From a bacterium (lineage in GTDB: Bacteria > UBP15 > UBA6099), in assembly GCA_029564595.1 (NCBI GenBank), contig JAKQPS010000141.1:1-7502 (forward strand): a stretch of 7,502 nucleotides of DNA, given 5' to 3'. The notes under the pieces are model-generated. The model had not been told where the DNA came from. It saw only the letters and a program-made list of their open reading frames with translations, and did not search any database. The first letter of the stretch is position 1; every line of letters begins with the position of its first letter. The position numbers and the translations under genes were made by a program. Below are positions 1-7,502 of the stretch, one piece after another.

Positions 1-141
1 CGCAGACGCGCGCCGCCGCCGTCGCCTCTCTTGCATTTTATTCTTTTCTTTGCTATTATCATTATTGTCTTCAACCACAATAAGGAGTTAACTTGTATGG
101 CTATCATCTCCCCCGGACCTATTGTTTCCGAAGTTAGCGGA
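1..141. repeat. Terminal direct repeat, left copy (circular overlap)
   Basis: Bases 1-141 are identical to 7362-7502. The repeat covers the tail of the third 110-bp repeat copy, the leader of the first gene and its first 15 codons. Because it cuts through a gene and has the exact length of an assembler k-mer, the simplest reading is that the contig is a closed circle of 7,361 bp and this is the overlap. A true terminally redundant linear genome is the less likely alternative. Confidence 0.93.
31..59 (+). promoter_or_regulatory. Candidate sigma70 promoter with extended -10 for the paralogue operon
   Basis: TTGCAT (31-36) and TATTAT (54-59) are separated by exactly 17 bp, and TGC directly precedes the -10, giving an extended -10 (TGnTATTAT). 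The -35 matches consensus poorly (3/6) and the -10 well (5/6). Transcription would begin near 66, leaving a short leader with an AAGGAG site. The third 110-bp repeat copy diverges from the other two just where this promoter starts. Confidence 0.45.
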
Positions 142-783
142 CGTATTGGCGGAACTGTTTTCGCGCACAATCGCGGCGGCATGTACGCACGCAATGGAAC
201 TAAACCGTCTATTGTGACCACTCCGAGCGCTCAGGAGTTTAAGGCCATTTTAGGCCATGTATCCCAATTGTGGACTAATCTAAGCGCTGCTCAAATTGCG
301 GCTTGGAATTCGTACGCAGCAAACAATCCGCAGAAAAACCGTCTTGGCAGACAGATCAGCTTGACAGGTCAAAACTTTTTTATTAGACTCAACAGCCGCC
401 TTCTGTATGCAAATGCGCCCTCAATCGCATTACCCCCCACAGCTCCGCCCCCTTCTATCGCCGCTATTTCAGCTATGAGTGTTGCCTCTGCCAGCGGCAC
501 AGTTTCGCTTACTTTCGATGCCTCTGGACTAACTGCCGATCATGCTCTCTGGATTAAAGCCGCTGTTTCGTTTTCTGCAACAAAAAACAACGTGAATAAC
601 CTTTATACGTCGCTTCCGGTTACCGCAGCTGAACCCTCTTCCCCGCTGAATGTCGGTTCAGATGTTGTTGCAAAACTCGGTACAATCCAAAAAGATCAAT
701 TTGTGTACTTGCACGTGAGAACCATTGATCTCACCACAGGGCTTGTTTCTACCGCGCAATACGCGCGCGCAAAAGCATCATAA
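97..783 (+). CDS. Paralogue 1: phage-associated-type protein of unknown function, 228 aa
   Basis: The start at 97 is chosen because AAGGAG (82-87) lies 9 bases upstream. An in-frame ATG at 31 would add 22 hydrophobic residues without a ribosome site. Residues 1-110 form the module shared with the next two genes: GRIGGTVF at 15-22, RGGMYAR at 26-32, Trp59 and Trp70 in a Q/A-rich helical stretch, and LGRQISLTGQNFFIRLN around 83-99. A Pro-rich hinge (PPTAPPP) follows. The C-terminal ~110 residues are Ser/Thr/Val-rich and look like a beta-sandwich (fibronectin III-like by eye). From memory, proteins with this N-terminal pattern occur in phages, prophages and uncultured bacteria, often near structural genes. 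No enzymatic motif, signal peptide or membrane segment is visible. A virion, tail-associated or surface role is inference. It is first of three genes, with 10 bases to the next. Confidence 0.9.
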   Translation: MAIISPGPIVSEVSGRIGGTVFAHNRGGMYARNGTKPSIVTTPSAQEFKAILGHVSQLWTNLSAAQIAAWNSYAANNPQKNRLGRQISLTGQNFFIRLNSRLLYANAPSIALPPTAPPPSIAAISAMSVASASGTVSLTFDASGLTADHALWIKAAVSFSATKNNVNNLYTSLPVTAAEPSSPLNVGSDVVAKLGTIQKDQFVYLHVRTIDLTTGLVSTAQYARAKAS

Positions 784-793
784 CCTGTGACTT

Positions 794-1504
794 ATGGCGC
801 GGATCAAGTACAATAGTCTCATTTCGGACATCCGCGGTCGCCTTGGTTCTTTCGTTTTTTCGTCGAACTCAACCGGCGGTTACGTTAAAAATTTCGTGCC
901 GCCGGTCTTCAAGCGCTCCGCTGCTACCTCCAAGGCACGTACTGCTTTCTCCATTGCTTCTAATATTTGGTCCTCCCTATCGGTCGCAGTAAAAGAGGAA
1001 TGGCAGGCTTACGCTTCGGACATTGAGCAAGTGCGTTATGATTGGTTCGGTGATCCTTTTTTTCTTTCCTCTCGTGCTTCTTTCATCTCTTATTACATTT
1101 TAGCTTCGCGCTCAGGTTCAATACCCAGCTTGTCACCGCCTACTGGTTCAAAACCTTCGCCTATTACTTCAGCAGAGGCTCTTTTTTCCTCGTCTAACAC
1201 ACCCTTATCCTCTTATTTCACTGTTATTGCACCGCTTCCTGTCTCTTTTCAATGGTTACACGCAAAGGTTTTATTATGGAACTCCACTTCTGTTTTTTCC
1301 CCTCCTCGACCTCTTTTATTTTTGGCTTTACTTCCTTCTTCCGTTGGCCCCTCTTTTGATCTCTCCTCCTATTTTTCTTCCTTGTATCCTTACCGCACGG
1401 AGTCTTCCTCTTGGTTTCTTGCGGTTACTCCATTAAGTGCTACTTTTCGTCAGGGTACTACTGTTTTTCTGTCTAATGTACTAAACTCTGAGTCAAGCTT
1501 CTGA
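794..1504 (+). CDS. Paralogue 2: divergent copy, Ser/Phe/Pro-rich, 236 aa
   Basis: The start at 794 lies 10 bases after the stop of paralogue 1. No clear Shine-Dalgarno site is present, so translation is probably coupled. The N-terminus begins MARIKYNSLISDIRGRLG and continues V-F, a GG pair near residue 29, Trp59 (IWSSLS) and Trp70 (EEWQAYA), matching paralogues 1 and 3 position for position. The FFLSSRASFISYY stretch corresponds to the LTGQNFFIRLN region of paralogue 1, followed by a Pro-rich linker (SPPTGSKPSP). The C-terminal half is very rich in Ser, Phe, Leu and Pro and is encoded by an extreme pyrimidine run: 1321-1380 has only 9 purines in 60 bases. It shows little visible similarity to the other two tails. 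The function is unknown and is likely that of a partner subunit in the same structure as its neighbours. Confidence 0.85.
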   Translation: MARIKYNSLISDIRGRLGSFVFSSNSTGGYVKNFVPPVFKRSAATSKARTAFSIASNIWSSLSVAVKEEWQAYASDIEQVRYDWFGDPFFLSSRASFISYYILASRSGSIPSLSPPTGSKPSPITSAEALFSSSNTPLSSYFTVIAPLPVSFQWLHAKVLLWNSTSVFSPPRPLLFLALLPSSVGPSFDLSSYFSSLYPYRTESSSWFLAVTPLSATFRQGTTVFLSNVLNSESSF

Positions 1505-2409
1505 TGGCACGTATTATCACCAGCAGCTTAATCTCTTCTATTCAAGGCTCTATCGGTGGTCAGGTTTTCCGTCGGCGCCCAGGTGGCTTTTCTGTCTACC
1601 AACGCAAACCGTTGCTGGATCGCGCTTATAAATCAAAATCTCTACAACAAATCTTTTTAGCAGACGCTTCCAACCGCTGGAATGATCTGTCACTTCCCAT
1701 TAAAAAAGCTTGGAATTCGCTTGCTCAAACTCAATCGGTTTCGGCGCCTTGGTCTGCACCGCGCTTGTACTCCGGTCGTGAACTGTTCTTTTGTTTTTAT
1801 ACGTATGCGCGCCACTGTTTGATTGATCTTCCTGCAGACTGGCTTCCCACTCCTCCGCTTTTCTCAAAGAACCTCAGCATTACTGCTATGTTCTTCAAAC
1901 AGTCTTTGACTTGGGATAATAAGCCATTCTCCGAGTTGTCTTTTTCAGCTTGCTACTTTGATGAATTAGACCCTTGGTATCAGCCTATAGAAAAATCTAA
2001 CTGCTACGCCGCTGTATGGACTGGACAAACGCGCAATTTTTCTCAGGCACCGCCTCGAATCTGGCGCAAAATCGCGCCACTTCCGGGCCTTTTTCCTGAA
2101 GACCTCTGGGAACCTCGTGGGTACCGCCCTTCGTCCCGCTACTTCAATTGGTTCCTCCCTTATTTCGATACTTTCGGTCAGCCGGGCTATATTATTCCCG
2201 GCGCGCCTATGGTTAAAAATATTTATATTAATTACTGGATCAAAGCCGTTGCCCTTACAAGTGAGCGCCTCTATTTTTCGCCGCCGCTTTCTTGCCGTAC
2301 CTACATTCTCTATTCTGTCGATCAATATGGCTGGGCATCTTCTTATTTAGAAAGTCATCTTCACTTTCCGGATACTCTTGAAATCTTAGCCCCTAATATT
2401 CCCTCCTGA
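1504..2409 (+). CDS. Paralogue 3: divergent copy with aromatic-rich C-terminus, 301 aa
   Basis: The ATG shares its A with the TGA stop of paralogue 2 (TGATG, 1502-1506), which indicates coupled translation. The N-terminus MARIITSSLISSIQGSIGGQ, then VF, a PGG turn, Trp59 (RWNDLS) and Trp70 (KAWNSLA) repeats the shared module. The rest is ~190 residues rich in Trp, Tyr, Phe and Pro, longer than in the other two copies. It ends in a YWIKAVALTS...YSVDQYG segment comparable to the WIKAAVSFS...VRTIDLTTG end of paralogue 1. No transmembrane helix or catalytic motif is visible. The last 50 codons include one arm of a 30-bp inverted repeat (2251-2280) whose partner lies after the stop (2441-2470). An aromatic-rich binding or surface protein is a guess. 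Confidence 0.87.
   Translation: MARIITSSLISSIQGSIGGQVFRRRPGGFSVYQRKPLLDRAYKSKSLQQIFLADASNRWNDLSLPIKKAWNSLAQTQSVSAPWSAPRLYSGRELFFCFYTYARHCLIDLPADWLPTPPLFSKNLSITAMFFKQSLTWDNKPFSELSFSACYFDELDPWYQPIEKSNCYAAVWTGQTRNFSQAPPRIWRKIAPLPGLFPEDLWEPRGYRPSSRYFNWFLPYFDTFGQPGYIIPGAPMVKNIYINYWIKAVALTSERLYFSPPLSCRTYILYSVDQYGWASSYLESHLHFPDTLEILAPNIPS
2251..2280. repeat. 30-bp inverted repeat, left arm (inside paralogue 3)
   Basis: The reverse complement of 2251-2280 matches 2441-2470 at 29 of 30 positions. This arm is coding and in frame within paralogue 3 (residues 250-259). The arms are separated by 160 bp. Confidence 0.9.
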
Positions 2410-2683: not shown

Positions 2684-3115
2684 ATGATCCGTAGCACATC
2701 TACAGACCTATTTTGCAGGTCTTTGCTTGCTCTGGTTCCGCTGACGGTCTTTTCTTGCAAGCCCTCTTGTGAAAATTCCGAAGTTGCGCGCTCTACTCTT
2801 CCAGATGAAATTGAATCCGCCTTATTTACAACGTTTTCACCGTGGCAAGTTTGGTCTGAGTATCTTGGCTCTATAACGCCTAGGCTACCTGAATACCCGG
2901 TCATTTCTTCCTTGTTCTACGCGCGCCCACATTCGCCGTATTTTCGCTCTCTTTTATTATCGCCAGAACTACCGGACTTTGTCTTCTCCTATGTTTGTCC
3001 ACTCTGTCGCGAATCTAGCCTGTACGTCGCCTACGCGCAGCACGGCAGTTACCGCGATTCCCTCTCCCGTATCCTGTGTGTATCTTGCAAAAATACCCTA
3101 TGGCCGTATCTTTAA
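2684..3115 (+). CDS. Small zinc-ribbon protein, 143 aa, unknown function
   Basis: An in-frame ATG at 2669 gives five more codons, but it contains the GGAG ribosome site that serves the ATG at 2684 (9-base spacing). The same arrangement recurs before the next gene, so 2684 is preferred. The C-terminus has a clear four-Cys knuckle: CPLC (Cys105, Cys108), 23 residues, CVSC (Cys132, Cys135), ending KNTLWPYL. This looks like a treble-clef or zinc-ribbon fold that would bind one zinc. The N-terminus carries a short hydrophobic stretch, LLALVPLTVFSC (14-25). It superficially resembles a lipoprotein signal, but with Phe in the lipobox it is more likely part of a cytoplasmic fold. It is first gene of the operon behind the consensus promoter. 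No named family is recognised; DNA or protein binding is likely. Confidence 0.78.
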   Translation: MIRSTSTDLFCRSLLALVPLTVFSCKPSCENSEVARSTLPDEIESALFTTFSPWQVWSEYLGSITPRLPEYPVISSLFYARPHSPYFRSLLLSPELPDFVFSYVCPLCRESSLYVAYAQHGSYRDSLSRILCVSCKNTLWPYL

Positions 3116-3139: not shown

Positions 3140-3376
3140 ATGAGCAAATCATCAAGAAAACCCTTTAATGTCTTGCTGTCTTCCGCCGACTTAGAAAAAC
3201 TGGACGACCTCAAGAACCTAACAGGAAATTCCCGCGGTGCGGAGCTTCGCGCCGCGCTACTTTATCGCTGGAAGATGATCCGCCGCGGCCTTCCTACCTG
3301 TGCTAATGGATCCGCTTGCTTCGTTCCTCAGATGCACGCGCGCGATATGTTTAGAGTAGAAGACGACTCAAAATGA
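3140..3376 (+). CDS. Ribbon-helix-helix (CopG/Arc-like) DNA-binding protein, 78 aa
   Basis: The start at 3140 is preferred over the in-frame ATG at 3125, whose own bases contain the GGAG site 8 bases upstream of 3140. Residues 8-46 fit the RHH fold: a beta strand PFNVLLS (8-14), helix A SADLEKLDDLKNLTG (15-29), the N-S turn, and helix B SRGAELRAALLYRWKM (31-46). Such proteins act as dimers that insert paired strands into the DNA major groove, typically repressing their own operon or controlling copy number or partition. The tail has an unusual Cys54-x5-Cys60-x5-His66 arrangement (CANGSACFVPQMH) that may bind metal or stabilise the dimer. The stop overlaps the next start as ATGA. Candidate operators are GACATGTC at 2604 and the CACA-N5-TGTG pair near the origin; assignment to this protein is inference. 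Confidence 0.78.
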   Translation: MSKSSRKPFNVLLSSADLEKLDDLKNLTGNSRGAELRAALLYRWKMIRRGLPTCANGSACFVPQMHARDMFRVEDDSK

Positions 3377-3606
3377 CGCACTACACTTTAATTAATCCTG
3401 AACAACCGATTCCTGATGACTTTCGTTTACTGTGGGACTTTTCTTTTCTAATTAATGATCAGCCAACAGGTATTTTATGGCGCCAAAGAGACAAGAAAAC
3501 TCTTTCTGTTCTTGGTGACTATTCGGTTCCAATCATCGAAAATCTGGAGAGTTTATTTGACAATGAAAGCGCCGCGATATCAGCCCCCGCCCCAGAGCTC
3601 GATTAA
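3373..3606 (+). CDS. Small acidic protein of unknown function, 77 aa
   Basis: The start overlaps the stop of the RHH gene by four bases (ATGA, 3373-3376). Only a weak ribosome site lies upstream, so translation is coupled. The protein is acidic and mixes hydrophobic beta-like segments (RLLWDFSFLIND, TGILWRQ, TLSVLGDYSVPII) with a disordered acidic end (SLFDNESAAISAPAPELD). It has no Cys, no signal peptide and no motif I recognise. Its last 44 bases overlap the next gene in another frame. Its place between a DNA-binding protein and a zinc ribbon suggests a regulatory or replication accessory role, but nothing in the sequence proves it. Confidence 0.65.
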   Translation: MTHYTLINPEQPIPDDFRLLWDFSFLINDQPTGILWRQRDKKTLSVLGDYSVPIIENLESLFDNESAAISAPAPELD

Positions 3607-3913
3607 CAGGACTCTAGAAGGGATCCTAAAACTCCTAGAGATCCCGGCAGAGCACCGTCACATTGGGTGGTGTGCCTCTGACTGTGAGCGGTGTGGCGCC
3701 CCTCTCTATGCTATTCGACACTCGTCGTCAGACGATCCTTTGATGACCTTTTGCCGCGAATGTAATTTTTTTGCCTTGAACTGGAACTCTCGCTTCCTAT
3801 CGTATCCGTGGCGTCAGGAAGTAGAGCCGACTCTTGCGCGGACTGTGACCCCAGGTCCTCTGTATCGCGATATTCAGAAATTTCTTCGCTCCTTACGTCC
3901 TGATACCCGTTAG
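3563..3913 (+). CDS. Small zinc-ribbon protein, 116 aa, end of the operon
   Basis: The ATG at 3563 (MKAPRYQPPP) is chosen because GGAG lies at 3546-3549, 13 bases upstream, and it gives the shortest overlap with the previous gene. The open frame extends back to 3455 with unlikely sequence. Residues 14-34 are helical, then Cys37 and a zinc knuckle: CERC (Cys41, Cys44), 19 residues, CREC (Cys64, Cys67). The spacing and an LY after the first pair echo the first gene of the operon (CPLC...SLYV...CVSC), so the two may be distant paralogues. The C-terminal ~50 residues are basic with Trp, Arg and Pro. From 3711 to its stop at 3913 it overlaps the nuclease gene on the other strand. No terminator separates the two convergent genes. 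The function is unknown; nucleic acid binding is likely. Confidence 0.75.
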   Translation: MKAPRYQPPPQSSINRTLEGILKLLEIPAEHRHIGWCASDCERCGAPLYAIRHSSSDDPLMTFCRECNFFALNWNSRFLSYPWRQEVEPTLARTVTPGPLYRDIQKFLRSLRPDTR

Positions 3914-4361
3914 TCCTTTTACCCCGTCGCCACGCCCAGGGGGGAATATTTCCTGGCGCCGCCCAAATACCGCGCCCCTGTTGCCGCGCCTCTCGTTCCG
4001 CAGCCTTCAGGCGCCATTCCCTCGGCGCAAATTGTCGATACCACCAAGCCAAGCCTGCTCTTATCATCTCCTCCGATATGCTCTCCGAGAAATCCGCCGC
4101 TCGTACTATGTCAGATACTGTCCTTTTGTACCGGTCCTCTTTTACTGCTGTGATCAGACACGGCGCCGCCTCGATGATTTTCCACAGAGCTTGTCTTGCG
4201 CTGCGGTATCCAACCTGTCCTTTTTCCGGCGCATCAATCCCGCTAAGGCGTAGTATGCGATTTGTACCGTGTTCGGTCTGGATTTTCACCGTGTCCCCGT
4301 CATAACACCAGAGTACGCGACATGAGCAGGTCGCGCCGGCTTCGTAAAAAGTATGTTTCAT
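3711..4361 (-). CDS. Thermonuclease / staphylococcal nuclease homologue with a long disordered tail, 216 aa
   Basis: Residues 15-149 are a full SNase (OB-fold, Ca2+-dependent 5'-phosphodiesterase) domain. DGDTVKI (21-27) carries the metal-site Asp. RLSGIDAPE (38-46) supplies the catalytic Arg38 and Glu46 and the ligand Asp43. EDRYKR (75-80) supplies the second catalytic Arg80. GLAWWY (103-108), an AEREARQQGRGIW helix (121-133) and PPWAWRRGKR (140-149) complete the family pattern, so it should be active on DNA or RNA. No signal peptide is visible, so it is probably cytoplasmic or released by lysis. A weak AAGGA site lies 3 bases before the ATG. Residues ~151-216 are a Ser/Glu/Asp-rich tail absent from typical family members. 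They are encoded wholly antisense to the upstream zinc-ribbon gene. It is the only minus-strand gene, with a U-rich 5' leader. Defence against other DNA, host DNA degradation or processing of element DNA are all possible. Confidence 0.92.
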   Translation of the reverse strand: MKHTFYEAGATCSCRVLWCYDGDTVKIQTEHGTNRILRLSGIDAPEKGQVGYRSARQALWKIIEAAPCLITAVKEDRYKRTVSDIVRAADFSESISEEMIRAGLAWWYRQFAPREWRLKAAEREARQQGRGIWAAPGNIPPWAWRRGKRTNGYQDVRSEEISEYRDTEDLGSQSAQESALLPDATDTIGSESSSSRQKNYIRGKRSSKDRLTTSVE

Positions 4362-4387
4362 GTTTCCTTAGCCAAAAAAATTTTTTC

Positions 4388-4438
4388 AAAAAAAAACAAA
4401 AAAAAATAAAAAAAAAATTAAAAATTTATAAAAAAAAA
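4388..4438. promoter_or_regulatory. Phased A-tracts: predicted intrinsically bent DNA
   Basis: Runs of A at 4388-4396, 4398-4406, 4408-4417, 4420-4424 and 4430-4438 are interrupted at 4387, 4397, 4407 and 4418, nearly every 10 bp, that is, one per helical turn. A-tracts in phase with the helix bend DNA. The block, with A7T6 just beside it (4374-4386), sits directly upstream of the nuclease start. In the minus-strand message it would give a very U-rich leader. It may be a promoter or architectural element, or a host-factor (IHF/HU-like) site. Confidence 0.7.
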
Positions 4439-4500
4439 TATAACAAACGTACATATAACGCGCAGAAAACGCGCAAATTTTAACTGTGCTTAACTTTCTC

Positions 4501-4506
4501 ATTATA
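4501..4506 (-). promoter_or_regulatory. Possible -10 element for the nuclease gene
   Basis: On the minus strand an exact TATAAT lies at 4506-4501. No good TTGACA is found 16-18 bp upstream, so this is only a candidate. It would give a leader of about 130 bases running through the U-rich tract. Confidence 0.3.
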
Positions 4507-4590
4507 ACCATAAGATCATACTGCCACACCACTATTTTCGCATCACAGGGCAATTTTGGGAATCATTTTTTTTCGCACCCCATCAACACT

Positions 4591-4619
4591 TTTACAGACT
4601 TAAAAAAAGTATCTATCTT
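4591..4619 (+). promoter_or_regulatory. Candidate sigma70 promoter facing the GC-rich repeat modules
   Basis: TTTACA (4591-4596, 5/6) and TATCTT (4614-4619, 4/6) are spaced by 17 bp. Transcription would begin near 4626 and run into GC-rich, gene-free modules that end in terminator-like hairpins, so the product would be a structured RNA. The AT-rich segment around it (4441-4675) holds no gene I can support. Confidence 0.3.
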
Positions 4620-4675
4620 CAACAATCGAATATCTGTTTTCTAGTCAAACGCTACCGCGCAAAGAAAACGAACTG

Positions 4676-4815
4676 TCGCGCGCCCGTTCCGGTCGCCGCT
4701 CCAGCCGTCGCGCCCAGCTGGTCGCTCCGGCATTGCGCCTACATCCAGCGGCGCCTAATTCGCCGCTGTATTCCGGCGCGCTCCGGCGCCGCCTTTGCCG
4801 TCGCCTTCGCATATT
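4676..4815. repeat. Direct repeat A, copy 1 (140 bp)
   Basis: This GC-rich block recurs at 4970-5109 (offset 294 bp) with only scattered substitutions. It contains GGCGCC palindromes and reads open in several frames only because stop codons are rare in it. I see no ribosome site or protein family, so I treat it as non-coding. Confidence 0.85.
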
Positions 4816-4850
4816 CGCTACGCTTGCCCGTTCCGGTCAAAGCTCCGCAC

Positions 4851-4948
4851 TCCGGCGCCGAGTACGTCGCCTCCGTAGGCTTCGGCGCCGAGTACGTCGC
4901 CTCAGCTTCAGCAGCAGCCACGGCGATGCCGCCGCTGCTGCTGTTTTT
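4851..4948. repeat. Direct repeat B, copy 1 (98 bp), ending in a terminator hairpin
   Basis: It recurs at 5279-5376 (offset 428 bp). Each copy starts with two 30-bp units built around CGGCGCCGAGTACGTCGCCT (4853 and 4883) and ends in a CAG/CTG stem. The offset is not a multiple of three, so the two copies lie in different frames, which argues against a conserved protein. Confidence 0.85.
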
Positions 4949-4950
4949 TT
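4909..4950 (+). terminator. Intrinsic terminator-like hairpin at the end of module 1
   Basis: CAGCAGCAGC (4909-4918) pairs with GCTGCTGCTG (4934-4943) over 10 bp. A 2x2 internal mismatch separates this from an inner CGGC/GCCG stem with a GAT loop. Seven T follow (4944-4950). This is the classic form of a Rho-independent terminator on the plus strand. Confidence 0.65.
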
Positions 4951-4969
4951 GGCTTCTTATTTTGAGTAA

Positions 4970-5109
4970 TCGCGCGCCCGTACCGGTCGCTGCTCTAGCC
5001 GTCGCGCCCTATTGGTCGCTCCGGCATTGCGCCTACATCCAGCGGCGCCTAATTCGCCGCTGTATTCCGGCGCGCTCCGGCGCCGCCTTCGCCGTCGCCT
5101 TCGCATATT
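4970..5109. repeat. Direct repeat A, copy 2 (140 bp)
   Basis: This is the second copy of 4676-4815. It begins the second module, which is longer than the first because 169 bp rather than 35 bp separate repeats A and B. Confidence 0.85.
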
Positions 5110-5278
5110 TGCGGCGCCTGCCCCTTCAGGTCATAGCGCCGCGCTCCGGCGCCTCTCAGCCTGTCCGCTCTTATCTCCCTTCTCTTGTTAGAAAACGTGA
5201 CAACTCCCTCCCTGTCTCCGGATCTTCTTCCTTGGTTCTCTTAGTTTCGCGGCCCGGCTTCGTGTCGCCTACGCAGGC

Positions 5279-5376
5279 TCCGGCGCCGTGTACGTCGCCT
5301 CCGCTGGCTTCGGCGCCGAGTACGTCGCCTCAGCTTCAGCAGCAGCCACGGCGATGCCGCCGCTGCTGCTGTTTTT
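5279..5376. repeat. Direct repeat B, copy 2 (98 bp)
   Basis: This is the second copy of 4851-4948, nearly identical. It is followed by a polypyrimidine stretch (5384-5440) and a GCGCGC/GCGCGC inverted repeat (5455-5460, 5471-5476). No gene is supported in 5110-5278 or 5377-5570. Confidence 0.85.
5337..5376 (+). terminator. Intrinsic terminator-like hairpin at the end of module 2
   Basis: It has the same CAGCAGCAGC/GCTGCTGCTG stem and inner CGGC-GAT-GCCG stem as at 4909, followed here by five T (5372-5376). Retention of the hairpin in both copies supports a function in ending a transcript. Confidence 0.55.
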
Positions 5377-5570
5377 GTGGCTCTTGTTTCTTCTGGTGGC
5401 GCGGCTTCGCCGCTTCTTCTTCTTCCTCCTATTGCTGCTGGTCTTCCTGTGTGCGCGCGCCCTTGCTTGTGCGCGCTGTTTCCTTTTTCATTAAAATAAA
5501 AAAAACTATAGTGCCCCGTTGCGGTTGCTCTTACTGCTCCTATAGATATTTTAAGCCCGCCTCAAAGCCA

Positions 5571-5599
5571 AAAAAAAGGACGGAATACGTCCTTTTTTT
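5571..5599. terminator. Perfect bidirectional Rho-independent terminator
   Basis: Seven A plus GGACG (5571-5582) pair without mismatch with CGTCC plus seven T (5588-5599) around a GAATA loop. The A-run and T-run make it work for transcripts from either side. It closes the repeat-module region and insulates it from the hairpin array downstream. No protein gene lies directly on either side. Confidence 0.9.
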
Positions 5600-5603
5600 G
5601 TCT

Positions 5604-5702
5604 TTTCGGCGGCGCTTTTTGCCGCTGACGCGTCAAAAAGTCGAAACCTGAATTGATTGTTACGGCGGCAGCGTCCGATAACAGTTAAAAACGTCGTAAC
5701 TG
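5604..5702. repeat. Cluster of short inverted repeats after the terminator
   Basis: TGACGCGTCA (5626-5635) is a 10-bp palindrome, and CTTTTTG (5615-5621) pairs with CAAAAAG (5634-5640). CAGTTA (5682-5687) pairs with TAACTG (5697-5702) around nine bases. AGGAGG at 5703-5708 looks like a ribosome site, but the ATG two bases further opens only a short low-complexity frame. A replication or recombination site is possible but undocumented. Confidence 0.45.
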
Positions 5703-5760
5703 AGGAGGAAATGCCGCTAGTTTTTCCAAGCGGCCGCCTTCGGCGACGTCTTTTGTTTTG

Positions 5761-6480
5761 GCCGACCGTTTTAGCGGCGTAAACGCCGCAAAAACGGCGG
5801 CCTGTGCCCACCCACCCGGCGGATCGGCTCGGCGCCGCCTCTGGCGGCAGGTCGCCGCCCGCCCTACCCTTAAGCGGTGCCTTCGGCGCTCTTTATTATG
5901 CGGCTCCGCCGCGGCGGCTCAGCGGCGCCTCTGGCGCCAAATCGCCGCCTGTGGCTCCGCCGCGGTCGCCGCAGCGGCTCAGCGCCGCCTGTGGCGGCAA
6001 TTCGCCGCGTGCGGCTCCGGCGCCACCGCCGCCCCCACCCACCCGGCTACGCTTGCTCGGCGCCGCCTGTGGCGGCACGTCGCAGCTTCGCCCCCCTAAC
6101 CGGTCGCCTTCGGCGCTTTTTTTTTAATTGCGGCGGTGCGCCTACGGCGCAAGAATCAAGCGGTCGCCTTCGGCGCTTTCGTTCTTCTTCCTGCCGCGTC
6201 CCCCGCCCACCCAGCGCCCCCGCTTCCTTGCGCCTACGGCGCTACGTCGCGGCGGCGCCCCCTTAAAGTGAAGCAAGCTCAAAGCATCGCACACAATGCC
6301 TCGTCCTCATACGTCGCGTCCAACAAGCGCGGCGGTTTGTTTCCGTCGACCCGCCGCCGTGCTAAGTCTGAGTCCCGCAGCGGTATTCCGCCTTGGCTGT
6401 CGCCGTCGCGTGGCAGCCGCGGCGGCTCCGCCGCCGACGTGGCCCGCGCCGTCGCCCCCTACGGCGGTACCTTTTGAGTG
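5761..6480. repeat. GC-rich array of short palindromes with 3-4 nt loops, non-coding
   Basis: Dense hairpin units fill this stretch: GCGGCG-TAAA-CGCCGC (5774-5789), GCCGCC-TCT-GGCGGC (5835-5849), GGCGCC-TCT-GGCGCC (5924-5938), GCCGCC-TGT-GGCGGC (5984-5998 and 6063-6077), TGCGCC-TAC-GGCGCA (6137-6151) and several CGCC-TTC-GGCG. A ~35-bp unit carrying the CGCCT-x-TGGCG core occurs four times (5825, 5915, 5975, ~6053). A CCCACCCACCCGGC block recurs (5807 and 6034). Several frames are open at once on both strands, but none has a ribosome site or a sensible protein, so this is compositional. Confidence 0.7.
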
Positions 6481-6540
6481 CTAACCAAATTTCCAGCCCA
6501 CAAACCCATATTGAAGCACGCAAAGCAAATACAGAAGACA

Positions 6541-6566
6541 GCAGCGGCGGCGCCGCCGCCGCTGCT
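6541..6566. repeat. 12-bp stem GC palindrome beside the origin
   Basis: With the A at 6540, AGCAGCGGCGGC (6540-6551) is followed by GCC and its exact reverse complement GCCGCCGCTGCT (6555-6566). It resembles the CAG/CTG stems that end the two repeat modules but lacks a T-run. It marks the edge of the GC-rich region; the sequence becomes AT-rich and holds DnaA boxes from about 6604. Confidence 0.75.
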
Positions 6567-6603
6567 GCTTACCAGCGGCGTAATGTCGTGTCTAATACCG
6601 AGG

Positions 6604-6643
6604 CACATTTATTGTGCATAATCAGGTATACACATCTATTGTG
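6604..6643. promoter_or_regulatory. Pair of operator-like palindromes CACA-TYTAT-TGTG
   Basis: CACATTTATTGTG (6604-6616) and CACATCTATTGTG (6631-6643) differ at one base and are spaced 27 bp apart. The stems extend to GCACA/TGTGC and ATACACA/TGTGTAT. Two copies of one dyad beside the origin suggest binding by a dimeric protein, such as the element's RHH regulator. The first overlaps a minus-strand DnaA-type box (TTATGCACA, 6621-6613). Confidence 0.55.
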
Positions 6644-6860
6644 TATGTTTTTTCTTGTTTTTTCACCACAACTTTTCCACAACTTATCCACATTTTCGAA
6701 CTCTGTTCACTTTTTCCCAACCTCTTTGTTTTCAACCACTTGTTTTGTGCTCGTGTTGCTCACACGTGAGTTATCCACATTTTTGCGCCCCTCTGCTACT
6801 ATCTAGATATATAACCCATACTCTATTATAATAATGAACAAGGATATCATGCATATAATG
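6604..6860. other. Candidate DnaA-dependent replication origin (oriC-like)
   Basis: Exact DnaA boxes TTATCCACA lie at 6684-6692 and 6771-6779. TTTTCCACA (6673) and TTCACCACA (6662) precede the first at exact 11-bp steps, so three boxes lie on one helical face. A reverse box TTATGCACA ends at 6613. After the last box come GCGCCCC (6785-6791), then CTG-CTA-CTA (6793-6801), then the AT-rich run TATATA...ATTATAATAATG (6807-6860). Box, GC-rich step, CTA trinucleotides and AT-rich DNA is the order known for bacterial basal unwinding systems (DnaA-trios), so 6800-6860 would be where the strands open. No Rep gene is recognised, which fits replication by host DnaA. Confidence 0.7.
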
Positions 6861-7079
6861 ATTGGTGATCCGCCGCGGATTACCCGAAAAAACCGCCGAT
6901 CCGCACACCAAAAACCTTGTTTATCATTCCAAATTCCGGAAATCATGCTCATATCTGTTCTTAACTTGTTCACTTATCAGCACTTAGTTCCTCTTTTCAG
7001 ACCCGCGGACGCCGGAAAAAGTCCTCTTTCCGCCGTAGTCGCATTAGACTAGCCAACCCTCCGGGTTTTACTTTGTGTG
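6861..7079. other. Spacer between the origin and the 110-bp repeats, no supported gene
   Basis: ATCCGC-C-GCGGAT (6878-6890 region) is a palindrome close to the AT-rich part of the origin. TAGTC-GCATTA-GACTA (7036-7051) is another. AACCC-TCC-GGGTT followed by TTA (7055-7070) is a weak terminator-like hairpin. A 67-codon frame from the ATG at 6849, preceded by AAGGA, exists but has no recognisable features. Confidence 0.4.
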
Positions 7080-7105
7080 CCGCGGCGCCGTCCTGCTGCA
7101 TCGTT

Positions 7106-7391
7106 CGGCGCCGCCGCCGCTTGCTAACGCGCCGAAAACGGCGCAGACGCGCGCCGGCGCCGTCGCCTCTCTCTCTTGTCTTTTTCCTGTTTAGGACCCC
7201 TGTTGTTTCTTCGCTCGGCGCCGCCGCCGCTTGCTAACGCGCCGAAAACGGCGCAGACGCGCGCCGGGCCCGTCGCCTCTCTCTCTCGTCTTTTTCCTGT
7301 TTAGGACCCCTGTTGTTTCTTCGCTCGGCGCCGCCGCCGCTTGCTAACGCGGCGAAATCGCCGCAGACGCGCGCCGCCGCCGTCGCCTCTC
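7106..7391. repeat. 110-bp tandem repeat, 2.6 copies, with conserved hairpin
   Basis: Copies start at 7106, 7216 and 7326 with CGGCGCCGCCGCCGCTTGC and an exact 110-bp period. The third stops at about 7391, where the promoter of the paralogue operon begins. Each copy holds a 6-bp stem with an A-rich 4-base loop: GCGCCG-AAAA-CGGCGC in copies 1 and 2, GCGGCG-AAAT-CGCCGC in copy 3. Each copy continues with ACGCGCGCC and a pyrimidine-rich half. A degenerate further unit may lie at 7079-7105. No ORF runs through it. Confidence 0.92.
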
Positions 7392-7502
7392 TTGCATTTT
7401 ATTCTTTTCTTTGCTATTATCATTATTGTCTTCAACCACAATAAGGAGTTAACTTGTATGGCTATCATCTCCCCCGGACCTATTGTTTCCGAAGTTAGCG
7501 GA
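7362..7502. repeat. Terminal direct repeat, right copy (circular overlap)
   Basis: This is the second copy of 1-141, base for base. It repeats the start of the first paralogue gene (ATG at 7458, equal to 97), so that apparent truncated gene at the window end is not a separate gene. Confidence 0.93.

Follow-up and report, generated by a model that had tools for sequence, protein, structure and literature searches.

We observed that positions 6604-6840 of the window (the whole stretch of DNA analysed, 7,502 nt long) have the layout of a chromosomal replication origin, although no recognisable initiator gene accompanies them. This segment may be a working BUS-type, DnaA-dependent origin of a 7361-bp circle that is copied mainly in one direction; we put the chance of this somewhat below even. 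The window is one contig of a 4.4-Mb assembly of 203 contigs, and its first 141 bases are repeated exactly at its end. Since the first and last 141 bases are the same, a 7361-bp circle, as proposed in the initial annotation, is the natural reading.

The following features were located in and around the segment:

6603-6617 (no strand): hairpin GCACA-TTTAT-TGTGC, whose right arm starts the reverse DnaA-like box
6613-6621, minus strand: reverse DnaA-like box TTATGCACA, overlapping the above hairpin
6628-6646 (no strand): second hairpin, ATACACA-TCTAT-TGTGTAT
6662-6692, plus strand: tandem boxes in 11-nt phase, TTCACCACA at 6662, TTTTCCACA at 6673 and TTATCCACA at 6684
6771-6779, plus strand: DnaA box TTATCCACA without mismatches, which anchors the origin-unwinding (BUS) motif
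6780-6792, plus strand: spacer TTTTTGCGCCCCT, 13 nt and GC-rich
6793-6801, plus strand: DnaA-trios CTG-CTA-CTA, matching the 3'-GAT-5' consensus at 8/9 positions when read on the other strand
6802-6840, plus strand: AT-rich stretch, the candidate unwinding element

The exact box TTATCCACA was present in the window only at 6684-6692 and 6771-6779. In 200 dinucleotide shuffles the mean number of exact boxes was 0.03, and two were never seen, so that the pair reported initially exceeds every shuffle. Within 6604-6860, four boxes with at most one mismatch were observed, against 0.17 expected. The phase of 11 bp described for three of the boxes (6662/6673/6684) is real; however, while the middle one (TTTTCCACA, 6673-6681) and the exact one hold up, TTCACCACA at 6662-6670 is a weak box with two mismatches. 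The reverse box was confirmed at 6613-6621. We also observed that a palindromic 16-nt element at 6604 was repeated 27 nt further, at 6631.

We further compared the region at 6771 with the published BUS rule, which asks for a DnaA box followed, after a spacer of 0-16 bp (most commonly 13), by three or more trios whose central base on the opposite strand is A (PMC8287927). Boxes within 2 mismatches of TTATCCACA were accepted. The 6771 motif had no box mismatches, a spacer of 13 and the trios CTG-CTA-CTA. The rule alone is a weak criterion, since 55% of random sequences would have three trios of some kind behind a box. The probability of two exact CTA trios there is 0.0065 under the local composition, however, and the trios at 6771 are better than chance. 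The box-plus-trio motif alone is also not unique to the circle, as it recurs on unrelated viral contigs (58 in one scan). Near-identical motifs group some of these contigs (L090/L100/L110, L099/L106/L128 and L096/L125), and most contigs of these groups have several DnaA boxes nearby, which suggests that DnaA-type origins may occur on other mobile elements.

When positions 6590-6900 were used as a blastn query against 50,697 phage records, the sole match below E 0.01 was MT837670.1 (E 7e-3), labelled in GenBank as 'UNVERIFIED: Bacteriophage sp.'. This record carries genes for DnaA (3250-4395) and DnaN (4640-5752) and the start of RecF (assigned from reading the sequences), and it is a fragment of a bacterial chromosomal origin mislabelled as phage. 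The match sits in its dnaA-dnaN spacer and spans the box, the GC-rich spacer and the trios. The longest word common to the circle and the record was TCCACATTTTTGCGCCCCT (19 nt), made up of the last six bases of the 6771 box and the 13-nt spacer TTTTTGCGCCCCT. In 300 randomisations of the window with the boxes kept, the shared word did not exceed 15 nt; as the match was picked from a database, however, its BLAST E-value gives the fairer picture. That the match landed in an origin is added evidence. Upstream of the match, the circle and the MT837670.1 spacer each have a tandem TTTTCCACA/TTATCCACA pair, oriented alike. The 19-nt word was absent from the viral contigs searched. The initial annotation had described GC-rich DNA, CTA trinucleotides and an AT-rich stretch laid out as in the unwinding region of a bacterial oriC. 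We found these elements in that order after the 6771 box, and both the BUS rule and the 19 bases identical to a dnaA-dnaN origin agree with such a layout.

A promoter-like TAGATA-17-TATAAT (6804-6832) lies inside the AT-rich stretch, so the boxes and the AT-rich DNA could instead be regulatory sequence placed before this promoter. The circle, for its part, could be an assembly artefact: it rests on a 141-bp overlap, which is apparently a common assembler word size, and 110-bp repeats adjoin it. We consider it highly improbable that the segment is no origin for either reason. A promoter would hardly yield an ordered array of boxes, spacer and trios that matches a true origin exactly over 19 nt, and the composition is continuous around the entire circle.

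The remainder of the circle contains the following genes and repeats:

97-783, plus strand: P1, the first of three tandem paralogues
794-1504, plus strand: P2, a P1 paralogue
1504-2409, plus strand: P3, a P1 paralogue
2684-3115, plus strand: P4, 143 aa, with cysteine pairs CPLC/CVSC and no family match
3140-3376, plus strand: P5, 78 aa, with a weak ribbon-helix-helix (CopG-like) match (E 0.0096, under the cut-off)
3373-3606, plus strand: P6, 77 aa, with no family match
3563-3913, plus strand: P7, 116 aa, with a weak zinc-ribbon match (E 0.0065, under the cut-off)
3918-4361, minus strand: staphylococcal-nuclease-type protein, the sole clearly assigned gene and the sole gene on this strand
7094-7423, plus strand: tandem array of three 110-bp repeats that separates the origin segment from P1

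The tandem proteins P1-P3 are an undescribed family. The low-confidence model of P1 has a helical N-terminal half and an all-beta C-terminal half; its fold matches were discarded as meaningless, the fold confidence being low (pLDDT 58). Searches of plasmid and phage records with the whole window and its proteins gave no relatives; P1, P3, the nuclease and the alignment of the paralogues likewise found none in viral and genome collections. Within P3, 30 nt (2251-2280) recur inverted (97%) at 2441-2470, 160 nt downstream. Two direct repeats of 36 nt, identical to each other, adjoin this copy at 2405 and 2482, giving the look of template switching. A near-consensus sigma-70 promoter, TTGACA-17-TATAAT, was seen by eye at 2602-2630, 5' of the P4-P7 genes. 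Positions 4362-6600, about 2.2 kb, are GC-rich and contain no convincing genes; they abound in UUCG-loop-like hairpins and repeats of 105-184 nt.

The element had been described as lacking a Rep gene, and our searches of the window by family, structure and HUH motif agreed with this. Pfam, PHROGs and NCBIfam searches of the window proteins gave no Rep; solved-structure relatives were found for none of P1, P4, P5 and P7; and across all these searches the nuclease alone could be named with confidence. The single-sequence fold of P4 was uninformative (pLDDT 44). HxH motifs occurred three times in frames of at least 50 aa, none in a plausible Rep context, and no HUH initiator was found on the circle. 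A Rep among the small proteins, named initially as the finding that would speak against the claim, did not emerge from the HMM and structure searches.

One of P4-P7, such as the ribbon-helix-helix protein, might nevertheless be an unrecognised initiator that acts with DnaA, as in pSC101, by binding the repeats or palindromes near the boxes. The circle does encode four small unassigned proteins, of which two have cysteine pairs and one is a weak ribbon-helix-helix match, and it has palindromic 16-nt repeats by the boxes and the three 110-bp repeats downstream. However, these proteins are all below 150 aa and bear no likeness to known initiators, and their genes do not adjoin the origin segment, which makes such an initiator distinctly unlikely.

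The strand composition of the circle was one-sided. GC skew was negative in 29/29 windows around the circle, AT skew was also negative, and purines made up 41% of the plus strand. Coding DNA, noncoding DNA and the reversed nuclease gene all showed the same pyrimidine-rich plus strand, indicating that the bias follows the strand and not the genes. A switch of the cumulative GC skew near 6800, proposed as a check in the initial annotation, was not seen, the skew on both arms from 6800 having the same sign (-0.16 to -0.20). Opposite signs are expected around a bidirectional origin, but not with one-directional theta or rolling-circle copying. Since the skew never switches near 6800, bidirectional copying is unlikely, and the pattern fits unidirectional theta, rolling-circle or single-stranded copying.

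One-directional copying, and with it the uniform skew, would also be compatible with an origin that is primed by RNA and lies in the noncoding 2.2 kb, the DnaA boxes aiding helicase loading in ColE1-type fashion. These 2.2 kb lack convincing genes, and positions 4300-7502 contain 17 hairpin- or terminator-like sites against 5.5 expected. RNA-based replication also has a precedent in repA-less prophages (PMC7157519). However, an Rfam search gave no match, including to known replication RNA families, and the noncoding region has no strong primer-RNA promoter. The trios, moreover, are to our knowledge not expected in ColE1-type origins. We therefore regard RNA priming as very unlikely.

At E<=0.01, a profile search of 386 genomes with the P1 family gave matches in 12 (the element's own genome counted), of which several were weak. 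One strong case was JAUWCW010000235.1 from a Candidatus Rokuibacteriota bin, the sole other small circle found with this family (4.1 kb, circular by reading-frame continuity); further members were on chromosome-like contigs. It encodes two P1-family members together with Rep_1 (PF01446, E 4e-11). It is like the window in being a small circle with tandem P1-family genes and a uniformly negative GC skew; all its genes are on the pyrimidine-rich strand, which we also counted as a likeness. It differs in having Rep_1 and no TTATCCACA box, whereas the window has boxes and no Rep. With this one relative as its basis, the comparison points to a rolling-circle ancestry of the circle. In another sequence (L080, 2353-4750), two P1-family genes are followed, as judged by eye, by a gene for a holin-like small protein and an RlpA-like gene, hinting that the family may be phage-related.

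The circle could accordingly be a rolling-circle or single-stranded element whose Rep was lost or is borrowed in trans, the DnaA segment being an accessory that serves as second-strand start, opening aid or backup origin. Besides the Rep_1 of the relative, the strand that is pyrimidine-rich throughout both circles (29/29 and 16/16 windows) and the two hairpins adjoining the boxes favour such an element. However, the window has no HUH protein, and PF01446 had no match in the bin (the control genomes also gave none). A pC194-type nick site was absent from the window, a weak test because the Rep_1 relative also lacks one. In addition, ordinary Rep_1 plasmids differ in the strength and sign of the bias, and a full chromosomal BUS would be left unexplained. 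Taken with this evidence on both sides, a rolling-circle element is rather unlikely.

We also evaluated whether the bin is the host. The circle was not found in same-genus genomes. In the DnaA of the bin, the box-reading domain retains its GRDHSTV motif. A comparison with the oriC of candidate hosts had been proposed, and when run on the bin it showed a difference: the dnaA-dnaN spacer of the bin and of two congeners has another BUS candidate (TTTTACACA with ATA-TTA-ATA-ATA-ATA), and the spacer of the bin shares words of at most 8 nt with the origin segment. This difference leaves three readings: the circle may belong to a host other than the bin, the bin may have its origin at some other place, or its DnaA may accept both motifs. 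For lineages that use the origin type of the circle, the word TTWTCCACATTTTTGCGCCCC adjoining dnaN is proposed as a marker.

If replication depends on DnaA, the host protein would bind at the tandem boxes (6662-6692) and at the perfect 6771 box, extend over the GC-rich spacer onto the CTG-CTA-CTA trios and melt the AT-rich stretch past 6801. The melted DNA would let the host load its helicase, copying would run mainly one way around the circle, and no initiator encoded by the element or by a helper would be needed. A complete origin architecture and the lack of any visible Rep led us to rank replication by DnaA alone first. We hold it below an even chance because the Rep of the relative, like the strand bias, points to a family of rolling-circle elements. 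An initiator may have been lost from this circle or be supplied from elsewhere, and the origin may work unaided or with help from the missing Rep. Thus, of the proposed reliance on host DnaA alone, the chromosome-like DnaA origin and the lack of a recognised Rep stood, whereas the sufficiency of DnaA is only a possibility, against which the uniform skew, the Rep_1 of the relative and the different spacer of the bin speak. With considerable doubt, we suggest a natural small circle that has host DnaA as its sole initiator and replicates through an unwinding origin of chromosome type, while the other circle of its family uses a rolling-circle Rep. Equally doubtful is the notion that such a circle would be a minichromosome-like parasite whose own initiator has been exchanged for that of the host.

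A plasmid that borrows only DnaA would be tied to the cell cycle of its host and would compete with the chromosome for the initiator. Artificial oriC plasmids are the usual means of studying this. With a natural example, one could examine how the element escapes over-initiation and incompatibility with the chromosome; it would also provide one answer to how plasmids without a recognisable rep gene replicate. In the literature covered (subscription papers being largely outside its scope), no natural small replicon was shown to use DnaA alone.

Iteron plasmids of the pSC101 type, which are assisted by DnaA, encode a Rep and have short iterons. The circle is like them in having a DnaA box adjoining AT-rich DNA and repeats, and unlike them in that neither a Rep nor short iterons were found on it. 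Small natural plasmids had been said nearly always to encode an initiator of their own or use a primer RNA, but replicons without a recognisable rep are less rare than that implies: PMC11702686 counts 161 of 813 A. baumannii plasmids without a recognisable rep, and PMC7157519 counts 105 of 110 parABS mycobacteriophage prophages without repA, those studied appearing to use RNA. The pRAY-type A. baumannii plasmids (PMC11702686) and the non-RepA prophages (PMC7157519) resemble the circle in having no identifiable initiator gene. The prophages are unlike it in being RNA-based, and the passages concerned describe a BUS-type DnaA origin for neither group. Among chromosomal origins, that of the bin differs from the segment in its dnaA-dnaN spacer. 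Compared with chromosomal oriC regions with a BUS (B. subtilis and the survey of PMC8287927), the segment differs in standing on a circle of 7.4 kb that has neither dnaA nor dnaN, in having only three recognisable trios and in lacking a skew switch; it shares with them the perfect box, the 13-nt spacer, three correctly oriented trios, the AT-rich stretch past the trios and the tandem boxes upstream.
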